From Gloeocapsopsis sp. IPPAS B-1203 (GTDB lineage: Bacteria; Cyanobacteriota; Cyanobacteriia; Cyanobacteriales; Chroococcidiopsidaceae): a DNA stretch of 64,000 nucleotides. The stretch lies in the NCBI RefSeq assembly GCF_002749975.1, contig NZ_PEIG01000012.1:62001-126000 (forward strand), given 5' to 3'. Of the stretch, positions 9,759 through 20,178 are shown piece after piece. Within the stretch, counting starts at the first letter, position 1. Every line of letters starts with the position of its first letter. Made by a program: the position numbers and the translations under genes. A model generated the notes under the pieces. It had not been told where the DNA came from. It worked only from the letters and a program-made list of their open reading frames with translations, and did no database searches.

Positions 9759-11705
9759 TTAGGCAAACATCTTGTTAATGATATCGCGATAATGTTCTGT
9801 CACAACCGGACGTTTAATTTTTAAAGTTTGAGTCATCATGCCATTTTCTAGAGAAAATGGTTCCAAAATCAATTCAAATGAACCAATTCGGTCATCTGGA
9901 CGATAACCTGGGCGATTTTTGACTTCCCGATTCAGTTCTTGGCGGAGTAAGTTCTGGATTGTTTTACTATTTAAGTCAAGTTCGGTATCGATATTCTGAC
10001 TAGCAGCCCATTGTTGTAAAGCTTCAAGATTAGGAACAATTAAAGCACCGAGAGATTTTTGATCTTGTCCGACAAGCATAATCTGATCAATATAGGGCGA
10101 TCGCAAACACGCATCTTCAATCGGTTGTGGTTCAATATTCTCGCCATTCGTCAACACTATCGTATCTTTGGCTCTTCCTGTAATCACTAAATCATCCTCT
10201 GGCGTTACCCAACCGAGATCGCCTGTATCAAACCAGCCTTCGGAATCAATTGCTTTCGCTGTGGCTTCGGGATTTTGATAATAACCTTGCATAATTTGAG
10301 GTCCCCGCACCATCACTAACCCTCGTTCTCCTTGGGGTAGAGGTTGACGAGTTTCCGGATCGACAATACGCACTTGTGTCCCTGGTAATGGTTGTCCTGA
10401 TGCGCCTCGTAAGTTCCGCCATTGGCGACGCGCATTTGTCACAGGGGAGGTTTCTGTCAATCCGTACCCTACTAGCACTTCAACACCAATAATTTCAAAA
10501 AAGTTTTCGAGGTGCATCGCTAAGGAACCGCCACCGCTAATTACTTGCTTGAGTTGTCCGCCGGTTGCTTCACGAACTTTCTGATAGACTATCTTTTCAC
10601 CCAAAGAATGAATTGGAGACAATGCAGTTGCTTGCACAGAAGCACTGAGACGTTCTGACATACTAGGATTTAAAGAATTTAAGCTTAACCCATGGACAAT
10701 TCTACGGGCTTCGACAAACTGCTGACTCTTACTGAGGAAAAAGTCAATTAATCGCTGCTTGTTAGCTGGTTGTTCGCGGAACTGTTTTTTGACTCCTTCA
10801 TAAATTGATTCCCATAGTCGGGGTACGCCAACCATGTAATTTGGCTTGAATTCGCGAATGTCTTTTTTAACTTGACGGATATTGGTATAGATTTGAGTGC
10901 ATCCTTGAGAAAGCAAGAAATATTCGCCAGTGCGTTCGTAGACGTGCCAGGTTGGTAAAATGCTGAGGATGCGATCGCCCGCTTGTGGCTGCACAATAGC
11001 TCCTAGGGTTTCAACTTGATGCAACAAGTTACCATGTGTAAGCATGACACCCTTGGGTTTACCTGTCGTGCCAGAAGTGTACATCAGTGTTGCCAACGTT
11101 TCCCGATTTTGTTGCACTGGCTGTAACGGTTGATTTTCACCCAATGACATAAATTGCGGAAAGTTCAGCACTTTTAACGATGCATCAGCTTCTGGGGCTT
11201 CATCTGAGAGTAAAATGATAACTGAAATTGGCAGAGAAGCTAAATCAGCACGGAGTTTTTGTAGTGTCTGCTGATTTTCGACAACTAAGGCGATACTGCC
11301 ACTATTTTCTAAAATAAATAATAATTCCTGCCGCTCGGCTTGAGAACTCCGGACAACGTTTGCTGCTCCTGATGCAATAATTCCTTGATCGGCAATAAAC
11401 CAACGTGGGCTATTATCAGCAATTAAAGCGATGCGAGGAGGTACGCCGTTTTGCCCCTCTCCAACTTGTAAAGCTTGTAAAGCTGCTGCAAACTGCTGAA
11501 TTTGTTGATACAACTGCGTATATGTAATAACAGTTTCTGGCACAGCGTGAGGATCTTGCAGTGCAACTGTCTTGCCAAATCGCTGTTGTGCTAATTGCCA
11601 GATTTCTGGCAAAGATTGTACTGAAGAGTAATCTATTAAACGCTTCAAGCAATAGCGTTCTTGTTCCGTAAAATTGTAAGACATATTCGATGCAGGGCGG
11701 TTCAT
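9759..11705 (-). CDS. aas: Long-chain acyl-ACP/acyl-CoA synthetase (AMP-forming)
   Basis: The 648-residue ANL-family ligase activates fatty acids through an acyl-AMP. The P-loop motif YTSGTTGKPKGVMLTHGN lies near residue 210, GYGLTETSPV near 420, and the hinge region GWFDTGDLGWVTPEDDL follows; the catalytic Lys is expected in the C-terminal domain (KIKRPVVTEHY). Cyanobacteria of this gene type use acyl carrier protein as acceptor and recycle fatty acids released from membranes. ATG at 11705 is used; a second ATG seven codons in is possible. It precedes the YlqD-like gene. Acceptor specificity (ACP or CoA) is inferred from the host group. Confidence 0.88.
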   Translation of the reverse strand: MNRPASNMSYNFTEQERYCLKRLIDYSSVQSLPEIWQLAQQRFGKTVALQDPHAVPETVITYTQLYQQIQQFAAALQALQVGEGQNGVPPRIALIADNSPRWFIADQGIIASGAANVVRSSQAERQELLFILENSGSIALVVENQQTLQKLRADLASLPISVIILLSDEAPEADASLKVLNFPQFMSLGENQPLQPVQQNRETLATLMYTSGTTGKPKGVMLTHGNLLHQVETLGAIVQPQAGDRILSILPTWHVYERTGEYFLLSQGCTQIYTNIRQVKKDIREFKPNYMVGVPRLWESIYEGVKKQFREQPANKQRLIDFFLSKSQQFVEARRIVHGLSLNSLNPSMSERLSASVQATALSPIHSLGEKIVYQKVREATGGQLKQVISGGGSLAMHLENFFEIIGVEVLVGYGLTETSPVTNARRQWRNLRGASGQPLPGTQVRIVDPETRQPLPQGERGLVMVRGPQIMQGYYQNPEATAKAIDSEGWFDTGDLGWVTPEDDLVITGRAKDTIVLTNGENIEPQPIEDACLRSPYIDQIMLVGQDQKSLGALIVPNLEALQQWAASQNIDTELDLNSKTIQNLLRQELNREVKNRPGYRPDDRIGSFELILEPFSLENGMMTQTLKIKRPVVTEHYRDIINKMFA

Positions 11706-14945: not shown

Positions 14946-15914
14946 TTAGCTGTTTTGAAGTATTTTAACAATTTCCGCTAAAGTTTCTTCAACTGAACGC
15001 GGTTGCCAACCTAATTGTTGACGGGCTTTAGTAGCATCAACACGGACGCAGCGATCGTAAATGTAGTGAACGCGTTCGCGACTTAAAGGTGGTTGCCATT
15101 TTAATACACGCCCGATGGGATCGAGAAGATTTCCTGCTAGCTGAACAACAGATTTGGGGGCTTCTTTAGGAACAGATATTCCGGTTTGTTGACTCAAGAA
15201 TTCAAACATTTCCCGCGTAGAAAGTTCTCCAGCCGAAATAATATAGTGTTCTCCTGAAGGACTTTTCTCAGCAGCTAGTAGCATCGCATCAACTAAGTCA
15301 TCAACATGAACAATACCCGTGATGCGATCGCCTCCTGCCCATAACTTTAAGCGACCTTTGAGAAATTGCTGTAATACTGGACCAAAATGCGGATCGTCTG
15401 CACCAAAGATTCCTGATGGTAAAATACTAACTACAGGAAGACCTTGAGAGGCAAACTCATCAACAATCTGCTGTGCTTGGTATTTTGTGCGATCGTATGC
15501 GGAGGAGAAATCAGTTTGTCGACGTTGAAATGTCTCATCAACAACTTCACCTTTGGTATCGCCAAAAATGCCAATCGTACTGCAATAAACAATTTTTGAT
15601 ACCCCTGATGCTTGGGCAACTTCCATGACTGCGAGGGTTCCTTCAACATTAACGCGCTGCATTTTGTCATCATCAACTAACCCTAATTCAACGTAAGCAG
15701 CAGTATGAAATACCGTATCAACACCTTGCATTGCACTTTGCAAAGCTTTGCGATCAGTAATGTCACCGTAGACTAGTTGCAACTTAGAATCGGCTAAACG
15801 GGATAAGTTACTTGACTTGCGCACTAAGCCGACAACTTGTGCGCCACGTTGTTCTAAAGCTTGAACTAAGTGAGAACCAGTAAAGCCATTGCTTCCTGTG
15901 ACAAGTGCCTTCAT
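14946..15914 (-). CDS. NAD(P)-dependent epimerase/reductase, candidate ceramide reductase (CerR-like)
   Basis: The 322-residue protein is an extended short-chain dehydrogenase: TGSNGFTGSHLVQAL binds NAD(P), and the catalytic pair Y140/K144 appears in AYDRTKYQAQ, with Ser in CSTIGIFG. Its general family includes dihydroflavonol reductases and sugar epimerases. Its ATG overlaps the TGA of the GNAT-fold gene (ATGA), and that gene follows an alpha-oxoamine synthase gene by about 40 bases. In Caulobacter the same three families make ceramide, with the CerR reductase reducing 3-oxo-ceramide. That assignment is inference from context; a sugar epimerase role remains possible. Confidence 0.75.
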   Translation of the reverse strand: MKALVTGSNGFTGSHLVQALEQRGAQVVGLVRKSSNLSRLADSKLQLVYGDITDRKALQSAMQGVDTVFHTAAYVELGLVDDDKMQRVNVEGTLAVMEVAQASGVSKIVYCSTIGIFGDTKGEVVDETFQRRQTDFSSAYDRTKYQAQQIVDEFASQGLPVVSILPSGIFGADDPHFGPVLQQFLKGRLKLWAGGDRITGIVHVDDLVDAMLLAAEKSPSGEHYIISAGELSTREMFEFLSQQTGISVPKEAPKSVVQLAGNLLDPIGRVLKWQPPLSRERVHYIYDRCVRVDATKARQQLGWQPRSVEETLAEIVKILQNS

Positions 15915-17059
15915 AGGGCTTTTTCGTAAATCCGATACGTTTTATATATTTTGCCACCTGCGGCTTCAATCAATTTACGCGATGGGTAATTATCTTCGTA
16001 CACCCAAGATAATTCCGCACGTTTGTAAGGTTTTCCTTTTTGAATTCCTCCTTGCATTCCGAGATAAATTAAAGCCAAAGGTACCATTTTCAAACGATAC
16101 TCTGGCAGCGAGCAAATTGTAATCACTCGCCCTTGATCAATTTGACGACGATACCAGAGAAACTTGAGAATTCCCAACCAGTTTAATTTACCGTTGACGT
16201 GCTTCAGGGGAATGTTGTAATCAGGTAAACCCATGAAAAAGCCGATCATCTCGCCGTTATATTCTGCGATTGGGAACACATCAGGATCGACAATGCTTTG
16301 TAACTCTTTGGCTTCTTCCAGGAATTCGGCTTCGCTGCGGGGTGTAGAACTCCAGCTATGCGCAAATGCACGATTGAACAGGTGATAAATAGCGATCGCA
16401 TCTTTCTCAAATTTTTCCCCCTTGGTGTTAATCGGGCGAAAATTAACACCTGATTTACCAGCAACACGGTGCGCTTTTTCAAACTCTTTGGGTAAAGGTT
16501 TATCTAAAGGAAAATCATACGCGTATGCATCTTTCGCTTTGTGCCATCCATCACGTTCAATAAACTCTGGGTAGTATGGCGGATTATATGGCATCATGAC
16601 TAGCGGTGGAGAGTCAAAACCATCGACTAAAAAGAAGCAACGGTTATGCGTTGATAGATCGATAGGACCTCTAGCACGTTTCATTCCTTGCTTGCGCAAC
16701 CACTCACTTGCTGCTGCTAACAATGCTTGCGCCACTTCAAAATCTGGAATGCATTCAAAATAGCCAATTAACCCAATACTTTCACCTTCGCGTTCAATCA
16801 AGCGCTGATTGACTGCGGCGACAATTCTACCTAAAGGTTGAGGGTTTTCTGTATCTTGGGATAGGGCAACAAACTGTTGCAGTTTTCCATACTGAGAGAA
16901 AGGATAATCGGAAGTAAATTCCTTCGCAATACTACTGCGAATTGGTGGTATCCAATACTGATTGTTGGCATGTATCTTTGCTGGCACATCCAAGAAGGTT
17001 TCTCTATCTTCTGGAGTCGTTACAGCACGAACCTGAAAATTTATTGATTGTGTAAGCAC
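15911..17059 (-). CDS. GNAT-fold acyltransferase, candidate bacterial ceramide synthase (bCerS-like)
   Basis: This protein of about 382 residues has the look of a large GNAT-type acyltransferase: RIVAAVNQRLIE and IGLIGYFECIPDFEVAQALL in the first half, the conserved block RARGPIDLSTHNRCFFLVDGF, then MMPYNPPYYPEFIER, and a C-terminal GNAT-like repeat (WVYEDNYPSRKLIEAAGGK). Large GNAT proteins of this kind are often annotated as hypothetical and are found with serine palmitoyltransferase genes; the Caulobacter ceramide synthase is of this superfamily. GTG at 17059 with AGGT upstream is chosen; a TTG at 17077 is an alternative. The stop overlaps the next start, so both proteins are coupled. Confidence 0.7.
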   Translation of the reverse strand: MLTQSINFQVRAVTTPEDRETFLDVPAKIHANNQYWIPPIRSSIAKEFTSDYPFSQYGKLQQFVALSQDTENPQPLGRIVAAVNQRLIEREGESIGLIGYFECIPDFEVAQALLAAASEWLRKQGMKRARGPIDLSTHNRCFFLVDGFDSPPLVMMPYNPPYYPEFIERDGWHKAKDAYAYDFPLDKPLPKEFEKAHRVAGKSGVNFRPINTKGEKFEKDAIAIYHLFNRAFAHSWSSTPRSEAEFLEEAKELQSIVDPDVFPIAEYNGEMIGFFMGLPDYNIPLKHVNGKLNWLGILKFLWYRRQIDQGRVITICSLPEYRLKMVPLALIYLGMQGGIQKGKPYKRAELSWVYEDNYPSRKLIEAAGGKIYKTYRIYEKAL

Positions 17060-17101
17060 TTTGATTTTACCTAGCAATTAGTAGGCTAACAGCCAAAAAT
17101 A

Positions 17102-18382
17102 TTAAGCACTGAGCGTTGGTTTATAAAATAGATCTCTGGTAGCTACCATACCTGCAACTAAGCGATCCATCTCCTCCCGCGAATGCAAAGCATTGACAGT
17201 GATTCGCAAACGGGGTTTAGCAATAAACCAGATTGGAGATACCCATAGCCCATAGTTATGCATCAATTGCCGAGCAAAGATTTTCGGATTGATTTCAGAT
17301 TGTAAGATAACAGGAACAACATTTGTTTCACCGAGCGCCACAAAATCATGCTCTGTAAGACGCGATCGCAAATATTGCGTATTGTCTTGCAGTTTCTGCA
17401 CCAATTCAGGGCGTTGGCGTACTTGGCGAAGACTTTCTAATGCTGCAGCTGTTAAGGGTGGTGAGAGTGAAATTGTGCCAATTGACGTTGGTGACACGTT
17501 CAGGAGTGGTTTTAACTCAGCAACATGAGTGCTAATTGCGGCTCCTGCTGAGGCAGCAAATTTAGAGAAAGTCGTCATAATTATTGGGACTACGCCGCGT
17601 TCAATTGCCTGCGAGGGTAAAATACCAAAATGCTCATAAATCCCACGTCCTGTAGCTCCTAATGCACCGCTAGCATGAGCTTCATCCATTAATAGGACAC
17701 TACCTTCATAGTGGTGGAGCACATTGAGCATATCGGGTAGTGGAGCAATATCGCCATCCATTGAGAATACTGCATCAGAGACGACTAAAATGCGATCGCC
17801 TGGTCGAGCATAGCGCTGTAACTTACGCCGCAAGTCCTCCATATCGCAATGACGGTAAGCTTTGACGCGCACTTGCGGGCTGTGACTAAACACTTTCCCT
17901 GAACGAGTTCCTGCATTAACAACGGCAGAAACAATACAGCCGTGATTCAGCACATCGGTGAGAATTAGCGTTTCACGGGTGTTTTGAAATCCTGGTACTG
18001 GAATTGCGAGGTGACAAAAGGCATCCATCATTGCTTGCATTGCCATCCACGCATTAAGAAATAACTGTGTATGCGGTAAATGCTTGAATGCAGATATTTC
18101 TTCTTCTAACTGTTGATGTAACGTGATACGCCCACTTAAAACTGATGTAGAACTATTTGATGTGCCATACTGAAGGATTGCATCAATCGCAGCTTGTTTA
18201 ACCGCCTCGCATTGTACGAGTCCTAAAACGTCATTTGTGCAGAAAGTAAGAACTGTTTGTCTCTCACCTGTGTCTGCATCAGAAATCTCAACAAGATTAC
18301 CTTGCTTATGATGACAAATGTACTCGTCGGGATCGAGTCCGCTTTCGTACCACCGCTGAACGTATTCTTTAATAACTTGCAC
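17102..18382 (-). CDS. Alpha-oxoamine synthase, candidate serine palmitoyltransferase (Spt-like)
   Basis: The 426-residue PLP enzyme condenses an amino acid with an acyl thioester. It shows VVSDAVFSMDGDIAPLPDM, the DEAHASGALGATGRG cofactor-binding motif and Lys 274 (TTFSKFAAS) as the expected Schiff-base residue. These fit serine palmitoyltransferase, BioF, Kbl and CqsA alike. The neighbours (large GNAT protein and SDR-type reductase on the same strand, 40 bases and then a 4-base overlap) favour sphingoid base synthesis over biotin. GTG at 18382 is the start, with GAGGGGAG just upstream. The substrate is inferred; AONS or an autoinducer synthase remains possible. Confidence 0.8.
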   Translation of the reverse strand: MQVIKEYVQRWYESGLDPDEYICHHKQGNLVEISDADTGERQTVLTFCTNDVLGLVQCEAVKQAAIDAILQYGTSNSSTSVLSGRITLHQQLEEEISAFKHLPHTQLFLNAWMAMQAMMDAFCHLAIPVPGFQNTRETLILTDVLNHGCIVSAVVNAGTRSGKVFSHSPQVRVKAYRHCDMEDLRRKLQRYARPGDRILVVSDAVFSMDGDIAPLPDMLNVLHHYEGSVLLMDEAHASGALGATGRGIYEHFGILPSQAIERGVVPIIMTTFSKFAASAGAAISTHVAELKPLLNVSPTSIGTISLSPPLTAAALESLRQVRQRPELVQKLQDNTQYLRSRLTEHDFVALGETNVVPVILQSEINPKIFARQLMHNYGLWVSPIWFIAKPRLRITVNALHSREEMDRLVAGMVATRDLFYKPTLSA

Positions 18383-18525: not shown

Positions 18526-19635
18526 TTAAGAACCGCTAGTAAGATTGGTAATTGATTCTTTCTCCTGACGTTGTAGGGACGATTGTATAGATTTTTGCAT
18601 AAATTGTTCATGTTGCCGGATAATTAGTCGTTGAATAGCAATAATTGCTGGATTAATTTCTACATATCTGCGTTGAGGATTCACGAGATAGTTACGTTGC
18701 TCGCTTTCGATCATTTCAATGTCTTGCGCCAGAAACTTAGATAATACAAAGCGCTGAAGTAGAGGTATTAGTAATGGTTTGATAGGTTCTAGTACCCATT
18801 GTGGGAGGCGGACTTTGAAAAAGAATAGAGCAAATGAGCGACTTTCATTGCGATCTATCGGTAAGCGCATCAAGTACAAAGAAGAGACTCCTTGGAGTGA
18901 AGTGGCATAGTGTGGATAGCGATACTCTACTGTAATGGGCAACGTAGTTACAGTATCGGCGCGATCGCTTAAACCAAGAAACTTTGCCATGTGTCCTTTG
19001 TAGGAAACGTTGTATTCAGCGCGAACGGAAGTTTCAGTTTCTTTAAGACTAATTAAAACTGGGTCGAACCAGCCTTGTAATCCCTGATGCAAAAATCCAT
19101 GAAACACATCCATCGTGTTTTCGTTGCAGATAGAAAAATGTGCTTGAAAATGAGCAGAAATTGGGACTACTAACCACTCACTTTCGGAAAACTCTGGAAT
19201 ATAGGGAATTTGACAAGATGCAGCCAGCTTTGGTTCCCCAGGAAAAATCCAAATTAAATTATATTTTTCTTGAATGCGATAACTGCGAACGGTTGCACGC
19301 GGTAATTTTTGTTTTTCTGGCAAGTAAGGAATTTTTACACAACTTCCTTCACCATCAAATTCCCAGCCGTGGTAAGCACAAGCAAGGTTACAACCGTGAA
19401 CTTTACCTTTGTGTAAAGCAACGCCTTTGTGCGGACAAAAATCTTCTAGTGCATGCAGTTGACCGTTGATATCGCGGTAAATGGCGATCGCCTGCTGCCA
19501 GATGACGACAGATATAATTTCTCCAGGCTTGAGTTGATTTGCCCAACCTACCGCATACCAGTGATTCGGGTTAATTCCTACCTCACGGACAGCATTTTGC
19601 ACAGTGTGGCTTGTGAGTGTTGTCGCCAGTTCCAT
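18526..19635 (-). CDS. Rieske [2Fe-2S] non-heme iron oxygenase
   Basis: The 369-residue oxygenase subunit has an N-terminal Rieske domain (CPHKG and, 17 residues on, CAYHGWEFDG as 2Cys-2His ligands, residues 60-95) and a catalytic domain whose iron site is visible in ENTMDVFHGFLHQ. The C-terminal half includes hydrophobic, membrane-peripheral looking segments, as in cyanobacterial Rieske oxygenases that act on lipids or pigments. It lies about 140 bases upstream of the Spt-like gene on the same strand and may extend that unit. ATG at 19635 is chosen over an in-frame TTG at 19695. The substrate is unknown; lipid hydroxylation is only a guess from context. Confidence 0.8.
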   Translation of the reverse strand: MELATTLTSHTVQNAVREVGINPNHWYAVGWANQLKPGEIISVVIWQQAIAIYRDINGQLHALEDFCPHKGVALHKGKVHGCNLACAYHGWEFDGEGSCVKIPYLPEKQKLPRATVRSYRIQEKYNLIWIFPGEPKLAASCQIPYIPEFSESEWLVVPISAHFQAHFSICNENTMDVFHGFLHQGLQGWFDPVLISLKETETSVRAEYNVSYKGHMAKFLGLSDRADTVTTLPITVEYRYPHYATSLQGVSSLYLMRLPIDRNESRSFALFFFKVRLPQWVLEPIKPLLIPLLQRFVLSKFLAQDIEMIESEQRNYLVNPQRRYVEINPAIIAIQRLIIRQHEQFMQKSIQSSLQRQEKESITNLTSGS

Positions 19636-20178
19636 AGACGAGTGCTGTTGGCTGTGTATGTGACAATATTTAGCCTCTCGCTGACTGAAAGTCAATCAGT
19701 TTTGGATTATTTACAACATTGCTGGAAGAACAACTTATTCATCAGGCGTGACTTCTAAAGATGCGATTGATTTCAATCAAATACACAACGCGATCGCAGT
19801 CTTGATTCCAAATAATGAGCAAATGTGGCAACTTATACCAGGTCATAAAAAAATTTGAGTTTTTACCTAGCAGGAGTGCGAGAGACATCACAAGGTGCAT
19901 GAAAATTTAGTGATGTGAAGGAATTGGTCAGTTGGTTAATACTGATGCCTATCAATTTGACTCATCTATTGCAAGGTCAGTGTTGTGCAAGGTGTTTTCA
20001 GCATATTTACTGGACACACAAGCAATAGTTAAAGTGCTTGAAAGCACGTCAGGCTGAGTATTTACGAACACTGGAGCAGTAAGTTAATATCATCACAGTA
20101 ATAAAGTCTAGTGGTACAAAAACCAAGTTTTGTATTAGGTAAGCCACTTTCTGCTGAGGTGCGTCTTCTGGAGGTATT
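19636..20178. other. Intergenic region between divergent Rieske and kinase genes
   Basis: About 540 bases with promoters expected for both flanking genes. A weak trace of possible old coding sequence (frame broken by stops around 19930-20090) is seen but no family is recognisable. One HIP1-like site lies near 19790. A GGAGGT ribosome binding site is at 20170-20175. Confidence 0.5.

Follow-up and report, generated by a model that had tools for sequence, protein, structure and literature searches.

A co-inherited gene set of cyanobacteria as the candidate core of a pathway for ceramide-type lipids

Introduction

Bacterial ceramide synthesis is best described in Caulobacter, where Spt and bCerS are reported to be cytoplasmic and CerR periplasmic, the order of acylation and reduction being debated (PMC11087976). 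In Rhodobacteria, genes for an acyl carrier protein (ACP) and an acyl-ACP synthetase are reported to co-occur with the serine palmitoyltransferase (SPT) gene (PMC9386255). Here we describe a related gene set from the cyanobacterium Gloeocapsopsis sp. IPPAS B-1203 (NZ_PEIG01000012.1), located in a stretch of 64,000 nt that we call the window and whose positions are used throughout. It consists of a divergent alpha-oxoamine synthase (AOS), a tandem GNAT protein, an extended short-chain dehydrogenase/reductase (SDR) and a Rieske oxygenase. Judging from their sequences, these four genes probably make up the central part of a pathway by which cyanobacteria produce a ceramide-type lipid.

Two sphingolipids have been reported from cyanobacteria, namely from Scytonema julianum and Moorea producens, and PMC8895605 describes their genetic basis as yet to be reported. 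One of them, mooreaside A, is a glucosylceramide with a C17 base and a C25 acyl chain (PMC6272925). Since the Moorea was field-collected, the origin of this lipid may be doubted; sphingomonads are reported to live in xenic cyanobacterial cultures (PMC13028669). A cyanobacterial AOS, Npun_R3567 of Nostoc punctiforme, was once proposed as an SPT. PMC8895605 places it among the BioF homologues of cyanobacteria, reports that it produced no 3-ketodihydrosphingosine (KDS) in E. coli, and found no other AOS in that genome. The window AOS is likewise a cyanobacterial AOS proposed for this role but, unlike N. punctiforme, the window genome carries BioF plus a separate AOS.

Results

Layout of the gene cluster

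The AOS gene (17102..18382, minus strand, 426 aa, GTG start, PF00155 Aminotran_1_2) encodes a proposed long-chain-base synthase. It is followed by the gene of the tandem GNAT (15911..17077, minus strand, 388 aa, TTG start, Acetyltransf_1), a proposed N-acyltransferase (ceramide synthase) of the bCerS/YghO family, and by that of the SDR (14946..15914, minus strand, 322 aa, ATG start, PF01370 Epimerase), a proposed 3-keto reductase in the role of CerR. The original prediction had described these three genes as consecutive on one strand, which our analysis confirmed, together with the ATGA overlap (the GNAT stop and the SDR start share 15911-15914) and with the pyridoxal phosphate lysine Lys274 and DEAHASGALGATGRG in the AOS. 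The gap of 42 bases between AOS and GNAT in that prediction evidently results from starting the GNAT at the GTG at 17059; with the TTG start the gap is 24 bases. Absent from the prediction was the Rieske oxygenase gene (18526..19695, minus strand, PF00355). It precedes the AOS on this strand by 143 bases and encodes the proposed lipid hydroxylase/desaturase of the pathway. As had been stated, no ACP gene stands beside the cluster: none was present among the listed frames of at least 90 aa around it, and none of the 19 PP-binding matches of the whole genome, which include two short frames (99 and 105 aa), is on the window's contig. Scans for promoters (3 sites against a shuffle mean of 12.2) and terminators (9 against 4.7) were uninformative.

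The trio is co-inherited in cyanobacteria

The distribution of the trio was examined in 292 cyanobacterial genomes of 115 genera, which represent part of the phylum. Close orthologues were counted at a GNAT identity of at least 58%, at E <= 1e-60 for the AOS and at E <= 1e-50 for the SDR, the last two values being our own choice. Each of the three was found in 22 of the 292 genomes, and the three sets are identical, so that co-inheritance of the trio is complete in the sample; the carriers are scattered patchily over 16 of the 115 genera. The weakest AOS and SDR members counted had E values of 7e-206 and 9e-130, with nothing between these and the cut-offs, and weak GNAT matches (24-33%) in 18 further genomes were not counted. 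As a control we used the DUF427 gene beside the SDR. It was present in 71 of 80 chosen genomes (18/22 with the trio and 53/58 without) and is thus not correlated with it. Because the three orthologue sets occupy the same 22 of 292 genomes, unlike this control, their association is more than chance; co-occurrence statistics were computed ignoring the kinship of the genomes and are descriptive only.

Physical linkage is looser. In 14 of the 22 genomes AOS and GNAT are direct neighbours on one strand, and in 7 the whole trio is contiguous. A distance of more than 50 kb, or a location on different contigs, separates AOS from GNAT in 7 genomes and GNAT from SDR in 11. Carriers include the culture-collection strains Leptolyngbya sp. 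PCC 7375 and Baaleninema simplex PCC 7105 (in the latter the SDR is outside the stretch examined).

The AOS belongs to a separate lineage

Eleven NCBIfam models matched the window AOS, all with scores far below their cut-offs, and the best was bioF (234.5 bits; cut-off of TIGR00858, 426.45). This top rank, at 235 bits, would fit a paralogue of the biotin-pathway BioF surrounded by unrelated genes. We consider such an explanation highly improbable: the genome's own BioF, on contig C18, passes the cut-off with 472.8 bits, as does a BioF in 12/12 further genomes checked, and the complete co-inheritance with GNAT and SDR also speaks against it. A simple BioF paralogue was accordingly rejected because a separate BioF is present. 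The window AOS is the only other match of the genome above 24 bits on this model and, since Spt-type rows score 321-396, no canonical Spt is seen in the genome.

The curated SPT models NF047600, NF047599 and NF047603 gave 168, 164 and 110 bits against cut-offs of 640, 500 and 670, and none was passed. At least one of them is passed by the Bacteroides, Sphingomonas and E. coli rows. Taken alone these models are a weak test, because the AOSs of Rubrobacter, Streptomyces, Aureispira and locus L227, which lie within the Spt clade, pass none of them either.

In the trees presented here, relatives from Sphingomonas and E. coli take the place of Caulobacter sequences. In a careful tree of 74 AOS rows, an Spt clade of 39 rows (support 100/99) unites 35 of the 36 AOSs from beside GNATs with 4 known or assigned SPTs. 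The window AOS is outside this clade, in a lineage of 17 cyanobacterial and 2 proteobacterial rows (100/100) at the tip of a 2.1-long branch. This lineage adjoins an equally long HemA row, weakly (64/46), and the BioF rows of the tree are not one clade. In approximately unbiased (AU) tests a position as sister to Spt was not rejected (p-AU 0.51) and neither was, in a reduced set from which 9 long or odd rows had been dropped, a grouping with BioF (p 0.26) or with Kbl (p 0.48). A smaller quick tree of the reduced set placed the lineage with Spt (SH-aLRT 81, not starred). The AOS of Acidisoma, also beside a GNAT, groups outside Spt with AOS domains that two cyanobacteria (L286, L287) encode within very long reading frames of 1157 and 2746 aa.

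By sequence, the window AOS is thus neither a canonical Spt nor the BioF of its genome. The original identification as an Spt of the Caulobacter kind is not supported, given the position outside the Spt clade, the long branch and the curated models.

All 19 rows of the lineage keep H147, D233, H236, K274 and R393 in the alignment, which we take to be the catalytic residues, following the SPT literature and PMC8895605. Compared with Spt rows, the lineage has three insertions and several changed substrate-side positions. A serine found in 38/38 Spt rows (Sphingomonas position 102) is replaced by Cys, Thr or Ala in 19/19 rows, and the next arginine (38/38 in Spt) by Ser, His or Pro in at least 17/19, in a part of the alignment that is less sure.

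The predicted structure (predicted local distance difference test score, pLDDT, 89) has the AOS fold. It superposes on SPT 3a2b with a VIA Z score of 46.6 (1.8 A, 378 residues), first within ties: Kbl (46.4), ThAOS (46.2) and 5-aminolevulinate synthase (ALAS, 45.4) follow closely, and ThAOS is the top match in Foldseek. Structural comparison therefore supports the AOS fold, but SPT, Kbl, ThAOS and ALAS are not separable by it. By sequence the best PDB match is SPT 3a2b, with 136 bits against 113 for the next non-SPT entry.

These features bear on a second explanation, in which the product would be a sphingolipid analogue. Here the AOS would take alanine, glycine, cysteate or another amino acid, and the set would yield 1-deoxy- or sulfono-type N-acyl amino lipids. 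The position outside the Spt clade, the altered substrate-side positions and the insertions are consistent with it, as is the occurrence of cysteate acyltransferase and of broad AOSs such as ThAOS among the PDB matches. The lead of 3a2b by sequence and its first place, within ties, in VIA argue against it, and we regard an analogue as unlikely. Because the AOS lies outside the Spt clade, with a sister group that the AU tests do not settle, and misses every curated Spt cut-off, serine is its presumed rather than its established amino acid.

GNAT and SDR

The GNAT matched Acetyltransf_1 weakly (22.4 bits) and no NCBIfam model. In tblastn comparisons with Rubrobacter, Streptomyces, Sphingomonas and E. 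coli, E values were 2e-54 to 2e-44 at 28-33% identity, indicating full-length homology; identity is 28-30% to E. coli YghO and the Sphingomonas GNAT and 34-38% to 11 aligned loci of other phyla. Its model (pLDDT 85) shows a tandem GNAT fold with Z 24.2 to 7q3a, and N-myristoyltransferases also match (Z about 16). An unrooted quick tree, which omits L037 and, because of their frame length, 2/49 loci of other phyla, places the protein in a clade of its own with two proteins of proteobacterial metagenome-assembled genomes (MAGs; support 99), beside 59 other rows (88). The predicted membership in the ceramide synthase family thus holds insofar as the protein is a full-length relative of YghO, of the Sphingomonas GNAT and of GNATs beside Spt in other phyla, while in the tree its clade stands next to these Spt-linked GNATs.

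Distant GNATs occur elsewhere in the phylum (L031-L038), and the quick tree has six distant GNATs of the phylum further out. Because two genomes with a distant GNAT (G007, G021) have no AOS besides BioF at E <= 1e-30, the GNAT family probably reaches beyond ceramide synthesis.

The best NCBIfam model of the SDR is HpnA (208.7 bits; cut-off of TIGR03466, 367.65), followed by SdmB, and HpnA is also the best model of all 8 SDRs scanned from AOS-GNAT loci. Membership in HpnA or SdmA/SdmB was rejected, the scores of the window proteins being below the curated cut-offs. In a quick tree the SDR forms its own clade (99) beside, and not inside, the SDRs of AOS-GNAT loci and the CerR-like rows of E. coli and P. 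veronii (94); other SDRs of the window genome are on very long branches. The cyanobacterial clades of SDR and GNAT both include the two proteobacterial proteins. The window SDR starts directly with its Rossmann motif and has no leader peptide, which makes periplasmic reduction less likely here. CerR of Caulobacter, in contrast, is periplasmic, and the proposal that the SDR is a CerR of that kind is not clearly supported.

Rieske oxygenase and linked second module

Rieske orthologues at 57% identity or more were found in 15/292 genomes, all among the 22 with the trio (0/270 others); in 11 of these 15 the gene borders on that of the AOS. Another 51 genomes, 3 of them with the trio, encode Rieske proteins of lower similarity, with identities not above 43%. 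In a single literature search, no title connected a Rieske enzyme to ceramide and SPT.

Two further genes follow the trio. A fatty acid (FA) hydroxylase (PF04116) at 66% identity or more is present in 20/22 trio genomes and in 0/270 others, 6 of which have a 49-62% match, and an Mpo1-like protein (PF06127) at E <= 1e-10 in 15/22 and 0/270. In the window genome they are adjacent on contig C16 (86922-87413 and 87705-88013), at the head of a row that continues with an amidohydrolase, a B12-radical-SAM protein (DUF4070) and a DevC-like permease (G000 contig C16:86922-92483, L323). The amidohydrolase comes after the hydroxylase/Mpo1 pair, directly or past one small frame, in 9/10 loci compared. In Aliterella atlantica (L198) one stretch holds amidohydrolase, Mpo1-like, FA hydroxylase, GH3, major facilitator superfamily (MFS), Rieske, AOS, GNAT, SDR, ABC ATPase and permease genes. 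The only PDB matches of the hydroxylase at E <= 0.1 are two yeast Scs7 entries, both weak (E 0.0034 and 0.0054). Hydroxylase and Mpo1-like protein resemble eukaryotic Scs7/FA2H and Mpo1 at the family level, but the bacterial proteins, whose functions are putative, are short (open frames of 160-190 and 108-152 aa).

Neighbour families were defined as single-linkage clusters over stretches of up to about 10 kb per side in 51 labelled genomes. The Rieske family was found in 34, MFS in 25, ABC ATPase in 24, FA hydroxylase and FtsX/MacB-type permease in 11 each, histidine kinase in 8, GH3, Mpo1-like, FA desaturase and Tab2-like in 5 each, and three unassigned families in 5-7 each. Counts over the 51 labels are not independent, because families are single-linkage clusters and named loci partly duplicate sampled genomes (L188/G060, L202/G185, L204/G289).

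The transporters and the model scores invite another explanation, a terpenoid-modifying or secreted acyl-amine pathway, in which Rieske protein and SDR would act like SdmA/SdmB or HpnA and an unrelated small amide made by AOS and GNAT would be exported by the MFS and ABC proteins. Indeed, the closest curated model of the Rieske protein is the 4beta-methylsterol monooxygenase SdmA, and those of the SDR are HpnA and then SdmB. However, the scores are far under the cut-offs (Rieske 242 of 600 bits, SDR 209 of 368), HpnA leads equally for the SDRs of AOS-GNAT loci in other phyla, and the trio is accompanied across genomes by FA hydroxylase and Mpo1-like proteins. We therefore hold this pathway to be very unlikely, and return below to a ceramide-type product.

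Other genes were observed nearby. MFS, ABC ATPase and FtsX/MacB-type permease genes lie near AOS and Rieske in L188, L189, L198, L207, L215, L216 and others, the proteobacterial MAGs included, and may possibly serve lipid export. In Leptolyngbya/Leptothoe (L207-L211) the GNAT is followed by an oppositely oriented gene for a fatty-acid desaturase (PF00487), which lies between GNAT and SDR where both are present. A GH3-family protein is encoded near the cluster in L056 (15149-16831) and L198; its best NCBIfam model, the lyso-ornithine lipid synthetase OlsH, scores far below cut-off. In the window, an AMP-binding acyl-CoA/acyl-ACP synthetase-like gene (9759-11705, minus strand) is found 3.2 kb beyond the SDR, past a RecQ-like gene; instead of belonging to the set, it may encode the housekeeping enzyme of cyanobacteria.

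Relatives in other phyla

A search of plasmid records with the GNAT gave 44 records, and 12 loci were examined. Rubrobacter radiotolerans and a Streptomyces show the AOS-GNAT-SDR order of the window without an ACP, and their AOSs are inside the Spt clade. In E. coli the GNAT relative YghO is near AOS-ACP-SDR-FAAL genes, and in Sphingomonas parapaucimobilis the GNAT relative shares its region with an AOS that matches the known SPT 2jg2 best among PDB entries. Four of the 12 loci have an oxygenase or desaturase close by: a sterol-desaturase family protein in Acidisoma and Roseomonas, a fatty acid desaturase in Sphingomonas and a P450 in Diaphorobacter. In our reading, the window Rieske protein takes the place of these enzymes. 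The Nonomuraea stretch is unannotated and gave only a weak AOS match.

A scan of genome contigs with the GNAT yielded 576 confirmed loci, of which the best 80 were considered, so that absence from these carries no meaning. They comprise 29 cyanobacterial loci, 2 from proteobacterial MAGs and 49 of other phyla (33-40% GNAT identity). For 32 of the latter an AOS was found close to the GNAT, and many of the others are truncated at contig ends. Trios without ACP in Rubrobacter, Streptomyces, Gemmatimonadota, Binatota, Planctomycetota and others resemble the window in gene content (in Rubrobacter and Streptomyces also in order) but differ in having AOSs within the Spt clade and, among the best 80 of 576 loci, GNATs only 33-40% identical to that of the window; the Spt-like clade of PMC11334938, as presented there, offers a comparison. 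The two MAG loci (L215, L216; Gammaproteobacteria, Azospirillaceae) contain the cyanobacterial type of trio, with the GNAT 51% and AOS and SDR 54-60% identical to those of the window, which may reflect either transfer between phyla or misbinned contigs.

Discussion

The genes, the predicted folds of AOS and GNAT, the AOS catalytic residues, the co-inheritance and the shared clusters are direct observations; from them we infer the reactions, substrates, order of steps and final lipid. By analogy with Caulobacter, the pathway would begin with the AOS joining an amino acid, for which serine is the likeliest candidate, to a long-chain acyl thioester that the housekeeping ACP probably carries. The resulting 3-keto long-chain base would be N-acylated by the tandem GNAT, and the SDR would reduce the 3-keto group. 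The Rieske oxygenase may then oxidise the product, introducing a hydroxyl group or a double bond. The group on C16, in which FA hydroxylase, Mpo1-like protein, amidohydrolase and DevC-like permease genes are close together, could 2-hydroxylate the N-acyl chain and turn over 2-hydroxy acids, the Mpo1-like protein acting on the latter, as its Pfam name suggests. A ceramide-type product is likely because the trio is co-inherited, because the Rieske, FA hydroxylase and Mpo1-like genes follow it and because similar trios with a canonical Spt exist in other phyla.

With the Caulobacter/Rhodobacteria system Spt-bCerS-CerR (with AcpR and AasR) the set shares an AOS, a large GNAT homologous over its full length to YghO and the Sphingomonas GNAT, and an epimerase-type SDR. 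It differs in its AOS outside the Spt clade, in an SDR of separate clade without leader peptide, in its Rieske, FA hydroxylase and Mpo1-like partners and, compared with the rhodobacterial AcpR/AasR type, in having no dedicated ACP or acyl-ACP synthetase gene inside the cluster. The ceramide operon of the original prediction is supported by the GNAT family, by the co-inheritance and by two genes following the trio whose Pfam families are suggestive of sphingolipid-type chemistry; it is not supported as regards an AOS of the Caulobacter Spt kind, and not clearly as regards the SDR.

Several observations weigh against a ceramide pathway. To the AOS results given above (the separate lineage with unsettled sister group, the SPT models, the replaced serine and arginine, and fold comparisons that do not single out SPT) are added those on the other genes. 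A close Rieske orthologue is absent from 7 of the 22 trio genomes, and the Rieske gene next to the AOS looks short or split into two frames in L194:7827-8600, L201:7354-8118, L208:7337-8461 and L214:155-1366, perhaps through decay or misassembly. The examined stretches of the Tunicatimonas, Chloroflexota, Diaphorobacter and Roseomonas GNAT loci have no annotated AOS, and none was found near the GNAT in 17 of the 49 other-phyla loci among the best 80 of 576. Finally, Nostoc punctiforme, the sole cyanobacterium examined in PMC8895605, is described there as having no unbranched sphingolipids and no AOS besides its BioF-like one.

A more specific proposal is that of a cyanobacterial sphingolipid pathway whose long-chain-base synthase comes from a separate, fast-evolved AOS lineage and not from Spt, with tailoring by the Rieske protein, an FA2H/Scs7-like 2-hydroxylase and an Mpo1-like dioxygenase. 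Its products could include ceramides with odd chains, mooreaside A for instance; we put this proposal forward tentatively, as somewhat less likely to be right than wrong. Mpo1 is a 2-hydroxy-acid dioxygenase of alpha-oxidation, and it is speculation that the odd chains of mooreaside A arise from alpha-oxidation of this type. A Moorena genome (L206) has a contiguous trio with an FA hydroxylase nearby; no Rieske gene was found in the stretch and no Mpo1-like gene was seen in the 21-kb locus.

Metagenome screens for Spt are reported to have kept matches with E <= 1e-70 (PMC11334938, PMC12619533). Against the 40 Spt-type rows used here, 0/19 rows of the AOS lineage reach this value (best 4e-52), and such screens are thus expected to miss it. 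Searching titles and abstract openings of the literature on cyanobacterial sphingolipids, ceramide synthase and SPT, we found no description of the gene set, a cyanobacterial entry in the original bCerS paper or its supplement being possible. The original interpretation is supported in part. The set is probably a variant form of bacterial sphingolipid synthesis, and it would supply a candidate genetic basis for cyanobacterial sphingolipids.

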